From the NCBI RefSeq assembly GCF_003002915.1, contig NZ_PVTG01000001.1, positions 248,001 to 312,000 on the forward strand: a DNA stretch of 64,000 bases, read 5' to 3'. The position numbers and the translations under genes were made by a program. A model generated the notes under the pieces. It was given only the letters and a program-made list of their open reading frames with translations, searched no databases and was not told the origin of the DNA. Below, piece after piece: positions 2,940 through 11,732 of this stretch (its first letter is position 1; each line of letters starts with the position of its first letter). This DNA is from Geodermatophilus tzadiensis. GTDB lineage: Bacteria; Actinomycetota; Actinomycetes; Mycobacteriales; Geodermatophilaceae.

Positions 2940-3848
2940 TCAGGGACGGGTCAGGCGCTCCCGGCGGCCGGCGCGGGTGAGCCGCCGCCACTGCCGCCAG
3001 CCGGCGGGGTCGCGGCGGGAGACGAGGAAGAACCAGCCGAAGCGGACCGTCTCCAGCGGCCGCAGCCAGCGCATGCCGGGCTGGGCCATGAGGTAGCCGC
3101 GGTTGCGGTAGGTGAAGTACCGCTTGACCTCGTCGGCCGGGTACTGCGCCGAGAGCCGGCCGCCGAGGATCGGCGCGAACTCCGTCGTCCCCTCCGGGTG
3201 CAGGTAGGCCGCCTGCGGGCAGGTGCCGAAGGGCAGCCCGGCGCGCAGCAGCCGCCGGTGCACCTCGGTCTCGTCGCCGCGGAAGAACAGCCGGTAGTCC
3301 GGGACGCCGACGACGTCGAGCGCCTCGGCCCGGAACAGCGCGCCGTTGAACAGCGAGGCGTAGTTCGGCAGCAGGTCCAGGCCGGCGAAGTCGCCGCGCC
3401 GGCGCCGCCAGCGCAGGCCGCGGCGCAGCGGGAAGGCCAGCCGGTCGGGGTCGGCCATGTCGGTGACCAGCGGGCTGACCTCGGCCAGCCCGTGCCGCCG
3501 GGCGGCGTCGAGGAGCGTGGCGAGCACGGTGTCGTCGGCCGGGCGGCCGTCGTCGTCGGCGCACCACACCCAGTCCGCGCCGATCGCCAGGGCGTGCAGC
3601 ATCCCGTAGGCGAAGCCGCCGGCCCCGCCGAGGTTGCGCGCGCTGGGCAGGTGGGTGGCCGGCAGCCCGCTGGCCGCGACGACGTCGGCGGCCGACCGGT
3701 CCGGGCCGTTGTCGACGACGACGACGTGGTCGACCGGGCGGGTCTGCGCGGCGAGCGCGGCCAGGCTGTGCGCCAGCAGCTCCTGCCGGTGCCGGGTGAC
3801 GACGACGGCGACGATGCGCTCCCCGGCCGCGGGAGCGGCCGCCGTCAC
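2940..3848 (-). CDS. glfT1: Galactofuranosyltransferase GlfT1 (galactan initiation)
   Basis: This GT2-family cytoplasmic enzyme of 302 residues probably adds the first galactofuranoses to the rhamnosyl-GlcNAc lipid linker. Visible motifs are VVVDNGPDRS (45-52), the RNLGGAGGFAYG loop (71-82), DDD at 98-100 and FFRGDETEV at 188-196. Length matches Rv3782 (304 residues). The GTG start overlaps the wzt stop in a GTGA tetranucleotide, which decides the start and implies translational coupling. Mycobacteria show the same three-gene set Rv3781-Rv3783 (wzt, glfT1, wzm), and this synteny is the main reason to prefer GlfT1 over another rhamnosyl- or Galf-transferase. Confidence 0.88.
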   Translation of the reverse strand: MTAAAPAAGERIVAVVVTRHRQELLAHSLAALAAQTRPVDHVVVVDNGPDRSAADVVAASGLPATHLPSARNLGGAGGFAYGMLHALAIGADWVWCADDDGRPADDTVLATLLDAARRHGLAEVSPLVTDMADPDRLAFPLRRGLRWRRRRGDFAGLDLLPNYASLFNGALFRAEALDVVGVPDYRLFFRGDETEVHRRLLRAGLPFGTCPQAAYLHPEGTTEFAPILGGRLSAQYPADEVKRYFTYRNRGYLMAQPGMRWLRPLETVRFGWFFLVSRRDPAGWRQWRRLTRAGRRERLTRP

Positions 3849-4627
3849 GCCGGCAGGCCCTTGTAGGCCCGCAGCACGTCCTCGAGGTCGCCCTGCTGCT
3901 TGATCCGGCCGTGCTCCATCCAGATGCCGGTGTCGCACAGCTCGCGGAGGAACTCGTCGGAGTGCGAGGCGAACACCAGCAGCCCCGAGCGCTCGACCAG
4001 CGCCACCAGCCGCTGCCGGGACTTCTCCAGGAAGGCGGCGTCGACGGCGCCGATGCCCTCGTCGAGCAGCAGGATCTCCGGGTCGATGCTGGTCACCACG
4101 CCCAGGGCCAGGCGCACCCGCATGCCGGTGGAGTAGGTGCGCAGCGGCATGTGCAGGAAGTCGCCGAGCTCGGTGAAGTCGGCGATGTCGTCGACCCGCT
4201 CCTGCATCTGCCGGCGCGTCATCCCGAGGAACAGGCCGCGGATCATGATGTTCTCGAGCCCGGAGATCTCGGGGTCCATACCGACGCCGAGGTCGAACAC
4301 CGGGGCCACCCGGCCGCGCACCTCGGCGATGCCGCGGGTGGGCTCGTAGATGCCCGACAGCAGCCGCAGCAGGGTGGACTTGCCGGCGCCGTTGTGGCCG
4401 ACCAGGCCGACGCGGGCGCCGTGCTCGAGGGACACCGTGATGTCCCGCAGCGCCTCGATGACCGGGACCTTGCGGCTGCTGTCGACGTTGCCGCCCACCA
4501 GGCCAACGACGGTCTTCTTCAGCGACCGGCTCTTGGCGTCGAAGATCGGGAAGTCGACGCAGGCGTCCTTGGTGACGATGCCGATCGGGCTGCTCGGGTT
4601 CGCCGTGCTGTCGTTGCTCACGCTCAC
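3845..4627 (-). CDS. wzt: ABC transporter ATPase for galactan/polysaccharide export (Wzt/RfbE type)
   Basis: The 260-residue nucleotide-binding subunit pairs with the upstream Wzm permease to flip lipid-linked galactan across the membrane. Walker A is GHNGAGKST (77-85), the ABC signature is YSTGMR (165-170), Walker B is ILLLDE (185-190) and the switch histidine is His222. The protein ends at the ATPase domain and lacks the C-terminal carbohydrate-binding domain found in some O-antigen Wzt proteins, as in Rv3781. Start choice: GTG at 4627 overlaps the wzm stop (GTGA); a second in-frame GTG lies six bases further in. Tight overlaps on both sides mark it as the middle of an operon. Confidence 0.93.
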   Translation of the reverse strand: MSVSNDSTANPSSPIGIVTKDACVDFPIFDAKSRSLKKTVVGLVGGNVDSSRKVPVIEALRDITVSLEHGARVGLVGHNGAGKSTLLRLLSGIYEPTRGIAEVRGRVAPVFDLGVGMDPEISGLENIMIRGLFLGMTRRQMQERVDDIADFTELGDFLHMPLRTYSTGMRVRLALGVVTSIDPEILLLDEGIGAVDAAFLEKSRQRLVALVERSGLLVFASHSDEFLRELCDTGIWMEHGRIKQQGDLEDVLRAYKGLPA

Positions 4628-5478
4628 ACCCAGTAGGAGACGCGGGACCGGTAGCGGCGCAGCACGACCATCGTGAGCGCCCAGCCGACCACCGTGATGG
4701 CGAGGACGACCACCCAGTGCCGCCACACCTGGTCCTGGCCCAGGAGCGGCCTGCGGATGATCTCCACGAAGTGCAGGAAGGGGTTGAACTCGGCCAGCCG
4801 CGCCCGCTCGGCGATGGCGGGGTTGGGGCTGTTCACGAGCTCGTCGTAGATCCAGACGATCGGCGTCAGGAAGAAGGCGAGCTGCACGATGCTCTGCGTG
4901 ATCGGCAGGATGTCGCGGAACCGCGCCGTGATGGTGCCGACCGCCAGGGCCACCCAGGCCCCGTTGAGCGCCAGCAGCACGAAGGCCGGGATCGCGTAGA
5001 CGACGGTCCACGTCAGGGGCTGCGGGAAGACCAGCAGCATGACCACGTACACGAGCAGGTTGTGGGCGAAGAACAGCACCTGCCGCCACACCAGCCGGTA
5101 GACGTGCACCGACAGCGGCGAGGGCAGGTGCTTGATGAGGCCCTCGTTGGCGATGAAGACCTCGGAGCCCTCGTTGATGCAGCCGCTGATGAAGTTCCAG
5201 ACGACGAAGCCCACGAGGACGTGCGGCAGCAGGCGGGACAGCTCGATGTCGAACAGGCCCGAGTAGAGGACCCCGAGCGCGACGGCGGTGACCGCCATGC
5301 TGATCGTGATCCACACCGGCCCGAGGACCGATCGGCGGTAGCGCTGCCGGATGTCCTGCCAGCCGAGGTGCCCCCACAGCTGGCGCTGGCGCCACCCGTC
5401 ACGGAGGTCGTCGACGGCCCTGCGCCAGCTGCGCACGCCGGGAGAGGCCGTTGCGGTCACGGTTCCCAAGCTACCCAT
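4624..5478 (-). CDS. wzm: ABC-2 type polysaccharide exporter permease (Wzm/RfbD type)
   Basis: This 284-residue integral membrane protein of the ABC-2 family has about six hydrophobic segments, beginning near WITISMAVTAVALGVLY. It forms the channel partner of the downstream ATPase. Rv3783 is 280 residues. An ATG at 5478 is 17 bases after the preceding LGFP gene and is preceded by CCAGG. An alternative GTG at 5460 would give 278 residues, and I cannot decide between them firmly. The amphipathic N-terminus (residues 15-45, rich in Trp, Arg and Gln) is typical of the family. It is co-transcribed with wzt and glfT1. Confidence 0.92.
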   Translation of the reverse strand: MGSLGTVTATASPGVRSWRRAVDDLRDGWRQRQLWGHLGWQDIRQRYRRSVLGPVWITISMAVTAVALGVLYSGLFDIELSRLLPHVLVGFVVWNFISGCINEGSEVFIANEGLIKHLPSPLSVHVYRLVWRQVLFFAHNLLVYVVMLLVFPQPLTWTVVYAIPAFVLLALNGAWVALAVGTITARFRDILPITQSIVQLAFFLTPIVWIYDELVNSPNPAIAERARLAEFNPFLHFVEIIRRPLLGQDQVWRHWVVVLAITVVGWALTMVVLRRYRSRVSYWV

Positions 5479-5495: not shown

Positions 5496-7928
5496 TCAGT
5501 GCGTGGTGACGGTGAGGGTGCCGGTGGTGGTGTTGCAGACGATCCGGCCGTGCTCGAAGTCGCCGGCCCGCCCCTCGGGCACGGCGTACTCGTTGCTGGT
5601 GGGCAGGCCCAGCGCGCCGGCCGGGCCACCCTGGGCCAGGTAGGTATCCAGGATCGCGCCGTGCACCTCGCGGGCGCCGGTGGCCGCCGAGGAGTAGATC
5701 CGCCCGCCCTGGAAGGTGCCCACCACCGCCTGCGTGCCCGCCACCGGCGTCTCGTCGGAGGTCGGATAGCCCAGGAAGGACTGCTCGCCGTTGAGCGAGG
5801 AGTACAGCTGCCGGATCCAGCCGTGCACCTCGAACGCGCCGGTGCCCGGTGACCAGTAGATCGCCGCACCGGAGGCGAACACGCTGGCCGCGCCGCGCCG
5901 GTCGGGCATGCCCAGCTGGTCGCTGACCGGCGCACCGATCCACGCCCCGGCCCCGCCCAGGGCGGTCCACTTCGCCGCGATCGGGCCCAGCACCACCCGC
6001 GCGCCGGTGCGCACCGAGGAGTAGACGACCCCGCCGGTGTAGTCCTGCAGCACCCCGGCGCCGTCGGCGGCCGGGCGCTCGTCCGACGTCGGCCAGCCCA
6101 GCGCACCACCGGGCCCGCCGGCGTCGGCCCACTTCTGCCCGATCCAGCCGTGCACCTCGAAGGCCTGCGCCGCCCCCGGCGCCCGGTACACCGACCCGCT
6201 CTGGAACGCGCTCACCGACCCGCCGGCCACCGGCTGGGGATCGGCGGTCGGATAGCCCAGGAAGGAGCGCACCCCGCCCAGCGCCGTCCACTTCGCCGCG
6301 ATCGGGCCGACCAGGTCGTGCGCGCCGGTGCGCGCACTGGAGACGATCAACCCGTTGGAGAACTCGCTGACCGCCCCCACCCCGTCCGGGGCGCGCTGCT
6401 CGTCGCCGACCGGATAGCCCACCGCCGCCGACCCGGCACCGGCGGCGATCCACCGCTGCCCGATCCAGCCGACCACCGCGTGCGCGCCGGTCTGCGCGGT
6501 GGAGTACACCGCGCCTCCGGCGAAGGTGTTGTACGCCCCGGCGGCCGTGGCGACCTCATCGGAGGTCGGGAAGCCCAGCACCCCGCCCTCGCGGCCCAGC
6601 GCCGTCCACTTGTCCAGCACCCAGCCCCACACCGCGTGCGCCCCGGTGCCCGCCGAGGAGGAGATCACCCCCCGCTGGAACGACTGCGTCACCCCACCGG
6701 CGACCCCGGTCTCCTCCGACGTCGGGAACCCCAGCACCGACTGCTCCCGACCCAACGCCGTCCACCGGTCGAACACCCACCCCTTGACGACCCGGGCACC
6801 GGCGGGGCTGACGTAGACCGAGCCGCGCTGGAAGGTCTGGTAGACCCCGTCACCGCGGGGGGTGGGCTGCTCGTCGGAGGTCGGGTAGCCGAGCTCGCCG
6901 CCCTCGCGGCCGGCGGTCCACCAGCGGTCGGCGATCCAGCCGCGGGTGACGCGGGCGCCGGTGGCCGGGGACCAGTGGATGGCGCCGTAGGCGTAGTCCT
7001 GGAAGCAGCCGCCGTCGCGCAGGCCGCAGCCGATGGCCGAGCGGGGGGCGCCGAGGACGCCGCCCTCCCCGCCGAGGGCGGCGTAGCGGCGGGCGACCTC
7101 ACCGCCGCCGGGTGACTGCGTGGTGCCGAACCAGTCGGTGTAGTACAGCCAGAAGTTCCGGTTGCCGTAGGCCGAGCAGCCGTCGCCCACCTTGTAGCCC
7201 GCGGCCAGCGCGGCGGCGTTGGGCTGGTAGGGCGTGTAGTTGTAGAGCCCCGCGGTCGCCTGGTTCTGGATGTAGACCGGCGAGGTGCCGCAGGCGGCGT
7301 CGGGGTGGAACCGGACGTTGACCGTCGTGCCGGCCCGGTGCGCGTAGCGGGTCGCGTTGAGCTGGTAGACGCGGTACTGCCGGGCGCCGCTGTAGACCTG
7401 GTTGAAGAAGCCGTTGTAGGCCGGGTTGCACGGCGCGGTGTCCGGGCAGGCGAAGCCCATCGCCTCGCGGTACCGGCGGGCGTAGAGGGAGGACCCGGTG
7501 TTGGTCACCAGGGACTGCTCCTTCTGCAGGATCACCATGAGCACCCGCTGGCTGATCCCGCAGGACTGCCCGACCTTGGCGATGATGTCGGCCGCGCTCT
7601 CCTGCCAGGCGGCGCGGTAGCCCTGGCAGTACTGGTCGGCCGGCTTGTCCTCGGTGTCCTGCCGGTAGACCTTCAGGCACGGGGTGCCGTCGGCGCCCGT
7701 GCGGCAGGCGGCGCCCTTCTGGTCGAGGAAGACCTGGACCTCCGGCGCGGTCATCGCGCGGCCGTCGTAGAAGAGGTCGTCGGAGATGATGTTGCCGGGC
7801 TGGAACTGCCGGGCGTCGGCGGCCGCGGCCCGGTCGGCCGGCGCGGGCCCGAGCACGGGCAGCAGCACGGCCAGCGAGAGCAGGACCAGGACGAGGACGA
7901 CCGCCCGGGGCGCGGTGCGGCGGCTCAC
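5496..7928 (-). CDS. Secreted LGFP-repeat wall protein with an N-terminal lysozyme-like/hemagglutinin-type domain
   Basis: The 810-residue product starts with a signal peptide (RRTAPRAVVLVLVLLSLAVL then ADRAAAADA). A roughly 240-residue Cys-containing domain follows, with FQPGNIISDDLF, ISQRVLMVILQKEQSLV and YIQNQATAGLYNYTPYQP. I know this domain only as a common actinobacterial secreted module; the Glu of LQKEQ could be catalytic but is unproven. About ten LGFP repeats of roughly 53 residues follow (LGFPTS, LGYPTS, LGWPTS, IGAPVS). LGFP repeats are thought to hold proteins in the wall. Bases 5505-6788 are almost identical to the tail of the next LGFP gene. The GTG start overlaps the lipoprotein stop (GTGA). 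Location in the wzm-wzt-glfT1 operon suggests a role at the galactan layer. Confidence 0.85.
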   Translation of the reverse strand: MSRRTAPRAVVLVLVLLSLAVLLPVLGPAPADRAAAADARQFQPGNIISDDLFYDGRAMTAPEVQVFLDQKGAACRTGADGTPCLKVYRQDTEDKPADQYCQGYRAAWQESAADIIAKVGQSCGISQRVLMVILQKEQSLVTNTGSSLYARRYREAMGFACPDTAPCNPAYNGFFNQVYSGARQYRVYQLNATRYAHRAGTTVNVRFHPDAACGTSPVYIQNQATAGLYNYTPYQPNAAALAAGYKVGDGCSAYGNRNFWLYYTDWFGTTQSPGGGEVARRYAALGGEGGVLGAPRSAIGCGLRDGGCFQDYAYGAIHWSPATGARVTRGWIADRWWTAGREGGELGYPTSDEQPTPRGDGVYQTFQRGSVYVSPAGARVVKGWVFDRWTALGREQSVLGFPTSEETGVAGGVTQSFQRGVISSSAGTGAHAVWGWVLDKWTALGREGGVLGFPTSDEVATAAGAYNTFAGGAVYSTAQTGAHAVVGWIGQRWIAAGAGSAAVGYPVGDEQRAPDGVGAVSEFSNGLIVSSARTGAHDLVGPIAAKWTALGGVRSFLGYPTADPQPVAGGSVSAFQSGSVYRAPGAAQAFEVHGWIGQKWADAGGPGGALGWPTSDERPAADGAGVLQDYTGGVVYSSVRTGARVVLGPIAAKWTALGGAGAWIGAPVSDQLGMPDRRGAASVFASGAAIYWSPGTGAFEVHGWIRQLYSSLNGEQSFLGYPTSDETPVAGTQAVVGTFQGGRIYSSAATGAREVHGAILDTYLAQGGPAGALGLPTSNEYAVPEGRAGDFEHGRIVCNTTTGTLTVTTH
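5505..6788 (-). repeat. 1,284-bp direct repeat, copy 1 (eight LGFP repeats)
   Basis: This block matches 8765-10048 at a constant offset of 3,260 bases. By eye I find three differences: A5646/G8906 and G5838/C9098, both silent, and C6407/T9667, which swaps Gly for Ser in the motif VGYPVxDEQ. Identity begins at the last six bases before GGTGAGGG near the 3' ends and stops exactly at CCCTTGAC, where the N-terminal parts of the two proteins diverge. Confidence 0.97.
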
Positions 7929-8563
7929 GGGACGTCCACCTGCACCGGCTCGGCCGTCCCGGAGGCGCCCGACGAGCGGTAGGACAGCACCGCCGTCCAC
8001 CGCCCGGAGCCGAGCGCCGACCCGGCGACCTCGAGCCCGCCGCACGCGGTGGTGGAGGCGTCGGCCAGGCCGGTGGTCTCGGCGACGACCTCCTGGCCCC
8101 CGCGGGTCAGGGTGAGCGTGCACGCGCCGCCGTCCTCGACGACGCCGGTCACGTACCCGCCGGCGGCCACCACCCCGGCGGCGCCGTCCCAGGCGGCGTA
8201 GCTGGTGACCACCTCGACGCGGGCGTCGTCGTCGGCGTCGTCGTCGGCGTCCCCGCCGGTGTCCCCGCCGGCGCCCGGGCCCGGTGCCGGGTCGCGGTCG
8301 GTGGCCACGTCGTCGTCGCCGTGGGAGACCGGCGCCGGCGTGGGGACCGCGGTCGAGCTGCCGGAGCCGCCGGCCGGGTCCTCCGCCGTCGTGCTGCCCG
8401 GTGCCGTGCTGCCGGCGGCCGGGCTGCCGGCGGCGGGGGTCCGTGAGCTGTCGGCCGCCGGCGTGCCGCCCGACGAGCAGCCGCCGAGCAGGAGCGCCGC
8501 GGCCACGGGGACCAGCGCTGCGGGGAGCAGGACGGCGGGACGGCGGGAGCGGGCGCGGGTCAC
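7925..8563 (-). CDS. Putative secreted lipoprotein, low-complexity linker and small beta domain
   Basis: The product is 212 residues and I do not recognise a named family. A signal peptide with basic start VTRARSRR, hydrophobic core and lipobox LLGGC (about residues 18-22) predicts lipid anchoring. A Thr/Ser/Pro/Gly- and Asp-rich linker runs to about residue 115, including DDDADDDA, followed by a compact domain of about 90 residues with two Cys (GACTLTLTRGG and STTACGGLE) that could form a disulfide. The GTG start is chosen because AGGAGGAA lies just upstream. The stop overlaps the GTG of the LGFP gene. It is the first gene of the lipoprotein-LGFP-wzm-wzt-glfT1 operon. Confidence 0.75.
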   Translation of the reverse strand: MTRARSRRPAVLLPAALVPVAAALLLGGCSSGGTPAADSSRTPAAGSPAAGSTAPGSTTAEDPAGGSGSSTAVPTPAPVSHGDDDVATDRDPAPGPGAGGDTGGDADDDADDDARVEVVTSYAAWDGAAGVVAAGGYVTGVVEDGGACTLTLTRGGQEVVAETTGLADASTTACGGLEVAGSALGSGRWTAVLSYRSSGASGTAEPVQVDVP

Positions 8564-8706
8564 GGGTTCCTCCTGGACGCGTACGCACGGACACCCGGCC
8601 CGAGCCGGACGGCCGCGCACCGCCGGAGGCCGGGGGCCGACGGCGGTGCGGTCGGGGTGCGGGGGGACCGGCTGTGCCGCCGGTCGTCCCCCTCGGTCAT
8701 CGGCAG

Positions 8707-8755
8707 CCGGGGGAGCCGGGTGTACCGCCGTGGCGGGGGCGCCCGGCTCCCGGGG
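8707..8755 (-). terminator. Possible terminator after the LGFP amidase gene
   Basis: An imperfect inverted repeat abuts the stop codon. An 8-bp core GAGCCGGG/CCCGGCTC at 8712-8719 and 8744-8751 extends through a bulge. It lies between this gene and the promoter region of the downstream lipoprotein operon. There is no T-tract. Confidence 0.45.
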
Positions 8756-11554
8756 TCACCGGGGGGTGACGGTGAGGGTGCCGGTGGTGGTGTTGCAGAC
8801 GATCCGGCCGTGCTCGAAGTCGCCGGCCCGCCCCTCGGGCACGGCGTACTCGTTGCTGGTGGGCAGGCCCAGCGCGCCGGCCGGGCCACCCTGGGCCAGG
8901 TAGGTGTCCAGGATCGCGCCGTGCACCTCGCGGGCGCCGGTGGCCGCCGAGGAGTAGATCCGCCCGCCCTGGAAGGTGCCCACCACCGCCTGCGTGCCCG
9001 CCACCGGCGTCTCGTCGGAGGTCGGATAGCCCAGGAAGGACTGCTCGCCGTTGAGCGAGGAGTACAGCTGCCGGATCCAGCCGTGCACCTCGAACGCCCC
9101 GGTGCCCGGTGACCAGTAGATCGCCGCACCGGAGGCGAACACGCTGGCCGCGCCGCGCCGGTCGGGCATGCCCAGCTGGTCGCTGACCGGCGCACCGATC
9201 CACGCCCCGGCCCCGCCCAGGGCGGTCCACTTCGCCGCGATCGGGCCCAGCACCACCCGCGCGCCGGTGCGCACCGAGGAGTAGACGACCCCGCCGGTGT
9301 AGTCCTGCAGCACCCCGGCGCCGTCGGCGGCCGGGCGCTCGTCCGACGTCGGCCAGCCCAGCGCACCACCGGGCCCGCCGGCGTCGGCCCACTTCTGCCC
9401 GATCCAGCCGTGCACCTCGAAGGCCTGCGCCGCCCCCGGCGCCCGGTACACCGACCCGCTCTGGAACGCGCTCACCGACCCGCCGGCCACCGGCTGGGGA
9501 TCGGCGGTCGGATAGCCCAGGAAGGAGCGCACCCCGCCCAGCGCCGTCCACTTCGCCGCGATCGGGCCGACCAGGTCGTGCGCGCCGGTGCGCGCACTGG
9601 AGACGATCAACCCGTTGGAGAACTCGCTGACCGCCCCCACCCCGTCCGGGGCGCGCTGCTCGTCGCTGACCGGATAGCCCACCGCCGCCGACCCGGCACC
9701 GGCGGCGATCCACCGCTGCCCGATCCAGCCGACCACCGCGTGCGCGCCGGTCTGCGCGGTGGAGTACACCGCGCCTCCGGCGAAGGTGTTGTACGCCCCG
9801 GCGGCCGTGGCGACCTCATCGGAGGTCGGGAAGCCCAGCACCCCGCCCTCGCGGCCCAGCGCCGTCCACTTGTCCAGCACCCAGCCCCACACCGCGTGCG
9901 CCCCGGTGCCCGCCGAGGAGGAGATCACCCCCCGCTGGAACGACTGCGTCACCCCACCGGCGACCCCGGTCTCCTCCGACGTCGGGAACCCCAGCACCGA
10001 CTGCTCCCGACCCAACGCCGTCCACCGGTCGAACACCCACCCCTTGACCCACTTCGAGCCGTGGGCCTGCGTCCAGTAGATGCCGCCGTTCTCGAAGAGG
10101 GCGTAGTAGCCGTCGCCGCGGGGGGTGGGCAGGTGGTCCGACGTGGGGGCGCCCAGTGCCTCGGGCCCGCCGAGCGCGAGGTAGCGGTTGAGGATGTCGC
10201 CCCACAGCGCGCGGGCGCCGGTGGTCGGGGTCCAGTACATCCGGCCGCCGCTGTACTGCTGCCAGACCGTGCCGGCGGTGATCCGCGCCGCGCCCACCGG
10301 GGACCCCAGCTGCGCCCGGATCGCCGGGTCGGAGGCGTACCGGGCGGGAATGCCCTGCAGGGACCCGGCCATCGCGGCCGTCACCCGGTTGCGGATCTCC
10401 GGCAGCCGGCCGTAGCCGTACTGGCCGGGACAGGTGGTGCTGCCGACGTCGCGGTGCCCGAAGACCGTCGGGAGGGTGACCTGCACCCCGGCGGCGTAGC
10501 GCGAGGTGCCGCCGCCGCCGGAGGTCAGCACGGTGCTGCCGCGCGGGTCGACGTTGTACAGGGCGAACTTCCACGCGATGACGGCGGCCACCGAGTCGAC
10601 CGTGGCCTGCGGGACGGCGACGGTGTCGTAGCTGCCGAGCATGGAGACGCCGAAGGTCCCGGTGTTGAAGCCCCCGGCGTGGGCGCCGACCACGGTGCTG
10701 GCCAGGCCGCCGTAGCGGCCCTCCCACAGGCGGCCGAACTTGTCGACGATCACGTTGTAGCCGATGTCGCCCCAGCCGCGGCTGACCGTGTGGTAGCGGT
10801 AGATCGAGCGCATCATCGCCGGCACCTGGTCGGCCGTGTAGCCGTTGGTGTCGGCCGTGTGGTGCAGCGTCGCGGCCTTGATCGTGGTCGCGTACTCGGG
10901 GTCCCAGGTGCGGATGTTCTCGTCGGCGCCCCACTGCGCGCGGGAGTACACCGGCGGCATGGTCGCCGCCGCGTTCGCGGTGTCCTGGATGTCGGGCTGG
11001 CCCAGGGACGTGTCGGCGTCGCTGTCACCCGGGTCGATCAGGTCGAGCTGGACGTCGGTCGGGGCCGCGCCGGAGCGGGTCACCAGCTCGACCTCGACGC
11101 CGGTGCTCGGCCCGGTCCACAGCGGGGAGGTGCCGCCGCGGGTGTCGGGGTCCCCGGCGACGTCGGCGTCCGGCTCCTGCTCGGCGTCCTCGGTGCCGAC
11201 CTCGGTCCAGGCGCCCCAGTCGCCGTCCGCGTCCTGCACGCGGACCTGCACGCGGACGTCGACGACGGCGGGGTCGGCCGCCCAGGTGACGCCGACCAGG
11301 GAGAACTCGTCGACGTCGGTGCGGGTGACGGTGAGCGTGGGCGCGCTGTCCGGGACGCCGGGCACCGGGTCGGTCGTGCCGTCCTGCACGTCGGCGTCCC
11401 CGGCGGGGTCCTCGACCGAGCCGAGGTCGACCTGCACGGCGGCGGTCTCGACCGGCTCGGGCTCCGGGGCCGGTGCGGCGTAGACGGGCAGCACGGTGAC
11501 GAGCGCCAGCAGCGCGGTGAACGCGAGCAGTCCCGTGACGAGGCGGCGACGCAA
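8756..11554 (-). CDS. Secreted N-acetylmuramoyl-L-alanine amidase (PGRP/Amidase_2) with LGFP repeats
   Basis: The 932-residue product probably cleaves peptidoglycan outside the membrane. A signal peptide (MRRRLVTGLLAFTALLALV) is followed by an acidic region of about 170 residues, then a PGRP/type-2 amidase domain. Its zinc-ligand pattern is LHHTAD (about residue 230), FGHRD (about 367) and TTCPG (about 375), so catalysis looks intact. About ten LGFP repeats follow; the last eight are the duplicated block. I chose a TTG start at 11554 because GGAGG sits six bases upstream and the signal peptide begins there; a GTG at 11584 is the alternative. This is the common actinobacterial design of a wall hydrolase tethered by LGFP repeats. 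Confidence 0.88.
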   Translation of the reverse strand: MRRRLVTGLLAFTALLALVTVLPVYAAPAPEPEPVETAAVQVDLGSVEDPAGDADVQDGTTDPVPGVPDSAPTLTVTRTDVDEFSLVGVTWAADPAVVDVRVQVRVQDADGDWGAWTEVGTEDAEQEPDADVAGDPDTRGGTSPLWTGPSTGVEVELVTRSGAAPTDVQLDLIDPGDSDADTSLGQPDIQDTANAAATMPPVYSRAQWGADENIRTWDPEYATTIKAATLHHTADTNGYTADQVPAMMRSIYRYHTVSRGWGDIGYNVIVDKFGRLWEGRYGGLASTVVGAHAGGFNTGTFGVSMLGSYDTVAVPQATVDSVAAVIAWKFALYNVDPRGSTVLTSGGGGTSRYAAGVQVTLPTVFGHRDVGSTTCPGQYGYGRLPEIRNRVTAAMAGSLQGIPARYASDPAIRAQLGSPVGAARITAGTVWQQYSGGRMYWTPTTGARALWGDILNRYLALGGPEALGAPTSDHLPTPRGDGYYALFENGGIYWTQAHGSKWVKGWVFDRWTALGREQSVLGFPTSEETGVAGGVTQSFQRGVISSSAGTGAHAVWGWVLDKWTALGREGGVLGFPTSDEVATAAGAYNTFAGGAVYSTAQTGAHAVVGWIGQRWIAAGAGSAAVGYPVSDEQRAPDGVGAVSEFSNGLIVSSARTGAHDLVGPIAAKWTALGGVRSFLGYPTADPQPVAGGSVSAFQSGSVYRAPGAAQAFEVHGWIGQKWADAGGPGGALGWPTSDERPAADGAGVLQDYTGGVVYSSVRTGARVVLGPIAAKWTALGGAGAWIGAPVSDQLGMPDRRGAASVFASGAAIYWSPGTGAFEVHGWIRQLYSSLNGEQSFLGYPTSDETPVAGTQAVVGTFQGGRIYSSAATGAREVHGAILDTYLAQGGPAGALGLPTSNEYAVPEGRAGDFEHGRIVCNTTTGTLTVTPR
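8765..10048 (-). repeat. 1,284-bp direct repeat, copy 2 (eight LGFP repeats)
   Basis: Partner of 5505-6788, in the same orientation and the same reading phase, at the 3' end of the amidase gene. The flanks are unrelated. No inverted terminal repeats, target-site duplications or transposase are visible at its edges. Confidence 0.97.
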
Positions 11555-11560
11555 GGGTGT

Positions 11561-11565
11561 CCTCC
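11561..11565 (-). promoter_or_regulatory. Shine-Dalgarno site that selects the TTG start of the LGFP amidase
   Basis: GGAGG on the minus strand is separated by six bases from TTG at 11554. It is the only strong ribosome site near the start of the signal peptide and argues against the upstream GTG. Confidence 0.75.
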
Positions 11566-11732
11566 GGTGTGCCGGGGTGCGCACGCCGGGGAGCGCACGG
11601 CTTCCCCTGGAGGATCGGCGCCGCCGGCACCCCGCCCGGTGCTCCGACACGGCCCGGCACCTGGGAGTCCGTCCCACCCGTCACACCCACCGCAGCCGAC
11701 CCCCGCGTGGGGGACCGGTCGGTCACACCGGC

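Follow-up and report, generated by a model that had tools for sequence, protein, structure and literature searches.

The question raised by this locus is how two otherwise unrelated secreted proteins came to share a long stretch of C-terminal coding sequence almost base for base. The window, i.e., the whole 64,000-nucleotide stretch of Geodermatophilus tzadiensis that was analysed (genome G000 below), carries on its minus strand, in this order, gene B (a PGRP-type amidase followed by an LGFP array), a lipoprotein-like open reading frame, gene A (a domain here called cargo A, followed by an LGFP array) and the galactan exporter Wzm/Wzt. The answer that we consider probable is that both copies represent a single wall-binding tail module, which gene conversion within the genome has homogenised between adjacent genes of the same strand. 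The features concerned are the following:

2940..3938, minus strand: family 2 glycosyltransferase of the same locus (PF00535)
3845..4576, minus strand: Wzt, galactan exporter ATPase (NF050108, 447.3 bits, cut-off 400)
4624..5433, minus strand: Wzm, galactan exporter permease (NF050109, 421.5 bits, cut-off 380)
5496..7928, minus strand: gene A, open reading frame for a secreted protein of cargo A plus LGFP array; GTG at 7928 is the candidate start
5505..6788, minus strand: shared block, gene A copy; eight LGFP units in the helix-first register
6789..7076, minus strand: gene A's own LGFP part, about two units, absent from B
7077..7886, minus strand: cargo A, about 270 aa, widespread in Actinomycetota, with no match in the libraries searched
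7925..8563, minus strand: lipoprotein-like open reading frame between genes B and A; signal and Cys as read from the sequence
8756..11584, minus strand: gene B, secreted PGRP-type amidase plus LGFP array; frame open to 11677, GTG at 11584 is the candidate start
8765..10048, minus strand: shared block, gene B copy; eight LGFP units in the helix-first register
10049..10357, minus strand: gene B's own LGFP part, about two units, absent from A
10421..10888, minus strand: Amidase_2 domain of gene B (Pfam PF01510, E 1.6e-14, residues 264-419)

Both proteins have an apparent N-terminal signal peptide and both belong to the LGFP family (PF08310), with scores of 452.9 and 444.7 bits against a cut-off of 22 and ten stretches each (Pfam E 5.7e-139 for the ten of gene A); all 20 LGFP matches in the genome (E up to 0.001) lie inside these two genes. 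The first-pass annotation had read the two N-terminal domains as a PGRP amidase and a lysozyme-like domain. The former stands, since the Amidase_2 match of 54.8 bits against a cut-off of 26 places gene B in the PGRP/N-acetylmuramoyl-L-alanine amidase family; its sequence also contains LHHT and GHRDVGSTTCPG, which we take to be putative zinc ligands. The latter does not: cargo A of the window protein matched no family in Pfam, NCBIfam or PHROGs, nor any PDB entry by sequence, and a lysozyme or transglycosylase family was not among its matches. With 47 members as queries the matches were weak and each confined to one or two members (lowest E 0.034 in Pfam and 0.025 in PHROGs), and in a PDB profile search the top match, an unrelated phosphatase, had E 0.38. 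As a secreted domain cargo A is conserved and widespread (L009-L088), with an invariant Cys and an invariant KE pair in the 47 aligned sequences. The lipoprotein-like frame matched no family in Pfam or NCBIfam.

The two copies of the block, offset by 3260, are identical at 1281 of 1284 bases, which confirms the claim of a near-identical 1.28-kb block with three substitutions, two of them silent: GAT/GAC at 5646/8906 (Asp), GGC/GGG at 5838/9098 (Gly) and GGC/AGC at 6407/9667 (Gly/Ser). The three differences favour neither gene as the donor. Outside the block the similarity falls away, 11 of the 12 adjoining 50-base bins matching at 13-24 of 50 positions and one at 37. The repeats within one array were likewise correctly said to differ more from each other than the copies do, being 60-70% alike over 86-114 bases (at most 79%, over 48 bases). 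The LGFP repeat of 54 residues is named in the available part of PMC2447325, and the domain is described in an extract of PMC11299179 as having a helix at its N-terminus and a sheet after it. If the arrays are cut with the helix first, the block would comprise eight whole units, running in both proteins from VKGW to two codons before the stop, which supports the idea that it was copied or homogenised as a unit of eight repeats; in the Pfam register its start falls within repeat 2. From the border between cargo and tail, the N-terminal edge is some 290-310 bases further into the tail. Because each protein retains about two LGFP units of its own ahead of the block, the block edges are unit borders, and the proposal that domain boundaries coincide with block edges holds for the LGFP units but not for the cargoes.

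Near full-length relatives of the block were found in G011, in G048 (Blastococcus xanthinilyticus, also L011), in G075 and in G093. If protein-level purifying selection held two old tails identical, as might be supposed if both need the same ligand, silent sites should have drifted; yet the G000 copies agree at 99.7% of 295 fourfold-degenerate sites, while G011, G048 and G075 have blocks that depart from those of G000 at 36-39% of such sites. Since constraint on the protein cannot explain a match at silent sites, this explanation is refuted, and we give it next to no credence.

That the second copy is an artefact, one real tail having been doubled in silico, has to be considered, because the G000 assembly consists of 36 contigs and contains no 16S rRNA gene that could be found; it is therefore probably a short-read assembly from which some long repeats are probably missing, and sister assemblies break at this place. 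However, the locus lies inside a 613-kb contig in which each copy continues into its own cargo and flanks, and B. xanthinilyticus has the same arrangement in a separate assembly, so that we regard an artefact as very improbable. The four family genomes in which a homogenised pair is resolved are all in more than one contig. Between the B cargo and Wzm, the G011 and G075 assemblies break at the block or inside it. One G011 contig runs from cargo B through the entire block and ends just past it, another begins within the block and extends into Wzm, the two ends having 1031 exact bases in common, and cargo A was not found elsewhere in the assembly; there may be two blocks, the gap holding the lipoprotein frame and cargo A, or a single stretch may have been assembled at each of the two ends, and for this reason G011 is no proof of two copies. 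In G075 the contig with B stops after the first 95 bases of the block, and the other one begins at the block edge. The cargo A contigs of G090 and G035 measure 3.7 and 3.1 kb, and their ends have at least 55 and at least 77 exact bases, respectively, in common with the end of the B contig, which suggests collapsed identical ends; an overlap of this kind was not seen in G080. Breaks of this sort in some assemblies call for caution at this locus.

In B. xanthinilyticus the BLAST alignment of genes A and B covers 1292 bases at 99.4%, with an ungapped core of 1276 bases at 99.84%. The blocks are 99.8% identical within G000 and 99.5% within G048, as against 68-73% between species (G000, G011, G048 and G075); between G000 and G048 they are 71% alike, and 61-62% at fourfold sites. 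In the tree of block DNA the two G000 copies pair with each other and so do the two G048 copies, with support of 100/100 each (for G011x, only the position in this tree was used). Gene conversion as such, which had been proposed beside recent duplication, is supported by these values, and, as concerted evolution would have it, copies within a genome are more alike than orthologues, silent sites included, in G000 and G048. G093 counts against it, having the block in gene B alone and its cargo A about 14 kb away on the opposite strand.

A single recent segmental copy of the tail in this strain, without recurring conversion and with the other genomes having copied theirs separately after gaining the tail, is an alternative that we hold possible but unlikely. 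Separate gains are thinkable, as the block phylogeny fits neither cargo, and most adjacent pairs are not homogenised (see below). On the other hand, G000 and G048 agree in the protein position of the block's left edge, and a G075 contig starts there, so that the same edge in three genera (by group code) would require repeated coincidence. The array ahead of the block also speaks against it: among the loci then compared, that of G000 is closest to its B. xanthinilyticus counterpart in gene A (68.5%) and in gene B (60%), which suggests that the matching parts descend from a common ancestral arrangement in both genes; G011, added later, is closer for B (65%). Homogenisation by conversion remains our preferred reading; conversion, not crossing over or independent copying, would have made the copies alike, and would have done so more than once.

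To see how general this is, an adjacent pair was defined as B before A on the same strand with a gap between the frames of -600 to 3000, and near-identical stretches were sought in 147 loci, with repeated genomes included and the short loci L001-L008 and L109-L112 excluded; 16 loci repeating a genome under another identifier were dropped from the pair, tail-type, third-position and neighbourhood counts. Cargo A is found in 73 of 112 family genomes (E up to 1e-30) and cargo B in 80 of 112 (E up to 1e-60); both occur in 52 distinct loci and are adjacent in 39. Near-identical stretches between A and the PGRP gene are present in five distinct genomes. Besides G000 and G048 these are G019 (Geodermatophilus sp. 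TF02-6), with a separate block of 740 bp, 100% identical, elsewhere in the array; G036, with two older stretches, one of 344 bp (93.9%) and one of 136 bp (97.8%); and Actinotalea sp. Marseille-Q4924 (L056), in which cargo A and PGRP genes separated by one gene share 458 bp at 98.25% in a tail that is not LGFP. The tails are reciprocal best matches in 5 of the 39 adjacent pairs (G000, G019, G048, G036 and L132, the last at only 69% identity and with a tail of another type, T2), and in the other 34 the A tail is nearest another A tail and the B tail nearest another B tail. General concerted evolution across the family is thereby rejected, and with it the notion of "ongoing" conversion as a rule; since the tails of 34 of the 39 adjacent pairs are not mutual best matches, homogenisation is episodic. 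Taken together, the sequences point to gene conversion that is neither a single event nor the norm.

The tails also change independently of the proteins that carry them. The cargo B domains of G002, G003 and G025 form the sister group of the G000 one (support 99/91), and yet G000 and G025 are 83% identical in cargo B and only about 37% in the tail, whereas with G011 the values are 71.5% and 67%. A tree in which the five block-bearing B cargoes form one clade is weakly rejected (AU p 0.046). This indicates that tails have been replaced across species independently of the rest of the protein, so that the exchange of cargo that had been envisaged survives in altered form. As the block fits the phylogeny of neither cargo, it would have entered the gene pair by such a tail replacement.

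Cargo A is also borne with two other long tails, T2 (L120, L132, L034), with repeats of about 105 residues, and T3 (L056, L054); both are absent from Pfam, and NCBIfam has none for T2 and one far-below-cut-off match (EccB) for T3. A few tails resemble what we presume to be cell-wall-binding repeat 2. No near-identical stretch between the genes was found in the 12 adjacent T2 pairs. Relatives of the lipoprotein-like frame (blastp, at least 35% identity) occur in 45 of 48 LGFP, 28 of 40 T2 and 12 of 23 T3 loci. The tail types of A and B agree in all 39 adjacent pairs (27 LGFP, 12 T2) and in 11 of 13 non-adjacent ones; because the latter mostly match as well, and because a quick tree gives good support to only one independent switch, common inheritance explains the agreement, and coordinated switching was rejected.

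By analogy with the LGFP units of MytA, the tail may anchor both proteins to the wall polysaccharide exported by the adjoining Wzm/Wzt. Of the 73 family genomes with a typed tail, those with LGFP have the galactan exporter in 49 of 60 cases, those with T2 in 0 of 11, and the single genomes with T3 and with a truncated tail both have it; the 11 LGFP genomes without it make the proposed link to the glycan a loose one, although some of their assemblies are incomplete. A permease of the exporter (at least 60% identity) was present within the fetched stretches at 30 of 48 LGFP, 0 of 40 T2 and 0 of 23 T3 loci. Tail type and exporter are associated by Fisher's test (p 1e-5) but not significantly on the tree, where only three independent pairs are supported, and with so few independent changes the association is suggestive only. 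In 20 added genomes, the exporter's presence went with LGFP in 11 of 11, and its absence, for which a non-LGFP tail was expected, with T2 in 4 of 9 and LGFP in 5 of 9. Upkeep of the likeness could be due to selection for one anchor on both proteins or to the mere proximity of similar arrays, and proximity is enough for the data.

The tail has a counterpart in MytA/protein PS1 of Corynebacterium glutamicum (PDB 6swz, 6sx4; match E 7e-33), also a secreted wall-acting enzyme with C-terminal LGFP units, which according to an extract of PMC11299179 interact with peptidoglycan-arabinogalactan. MytA, in the same extract, has five units on a mycoloyltransferase; here, there are ten on each of two different cargoes, and the two genes have a block in common. 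Long-lasting concerted evolution has been reported for 26 prokaryotic genes, e.g., tuf (PMC6053082, as available in part). The likeness is that copies within a genome are closer than orthologues, at silent sites too; the cases in that part are mainly whole genes, although its mtrA case also involves domain shuffling, while here one C-terminal binding module on two otherwise unrelated proteins is affected, in some lineages only. As the module also changes between species without its cargo, it becomes testable whether the targeting of wall-acting proteins tracks wall chemistry by recombination. A literature search, with most subscription papers outside its scope, found no paper joining "LGFP" and "gene conversion".

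A bolder and rather doubtful extension, which we would put forward only tentatively, is that the tails are swappable cassettes, whose alleles cross species and are converted onto both proteins to bind the polysaccharide currently exported, favoured by G-rich codons on the coding strand that are prone to R-loops or G-quadruplexes. Compared with the remainder of the same A tail, the converted block has more codons ending in G in G000 (p 1e-7), G048 (2e-8) and G019 (0.0015), not significantly so in G036 (p 0.35), and in G000 the change falls at the edge of the block. G000 has 74 GGG runs where 58 +/- 8 would be expected, and G048 has 100 where 67 +/- 8 would be, the latter expectation being built on the codon usage of G000's neighbouring genes. 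Across 27 pairs the correlation with third-position G is 0.52 (Spearman, p 0.005, not corrected for relatedness). The signal could be a cause, a consequence or a mark of the block's common descent. Gene conversion in a surface protein, with a guanine quartet element, is described in the available part of PMC3547852 for the Neisseria pilin, which, unlike the two complete genes made alike here, diversifies from silent copies; a role of G-rich DNA at this locus is only a lead.

Some minor observations may be added. Enrichment of third-position G in the homogenised block, relative to the remaining part of the same tail or gene, was seen in the window copies, L113, L116 and L090. In L056 (9191-18147) the T3 tail is common to three neighbours, namely cargo A, a metalloprotease-like protein with HELGH, and a PGRP. 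Recent duplications within single tails (L028, L107, L123, L136, L102, L050 and L130) span 324-782 bases at 98-100% identity, and their spacing of 312-321 bases fits two LGFP units or one T2 unit.
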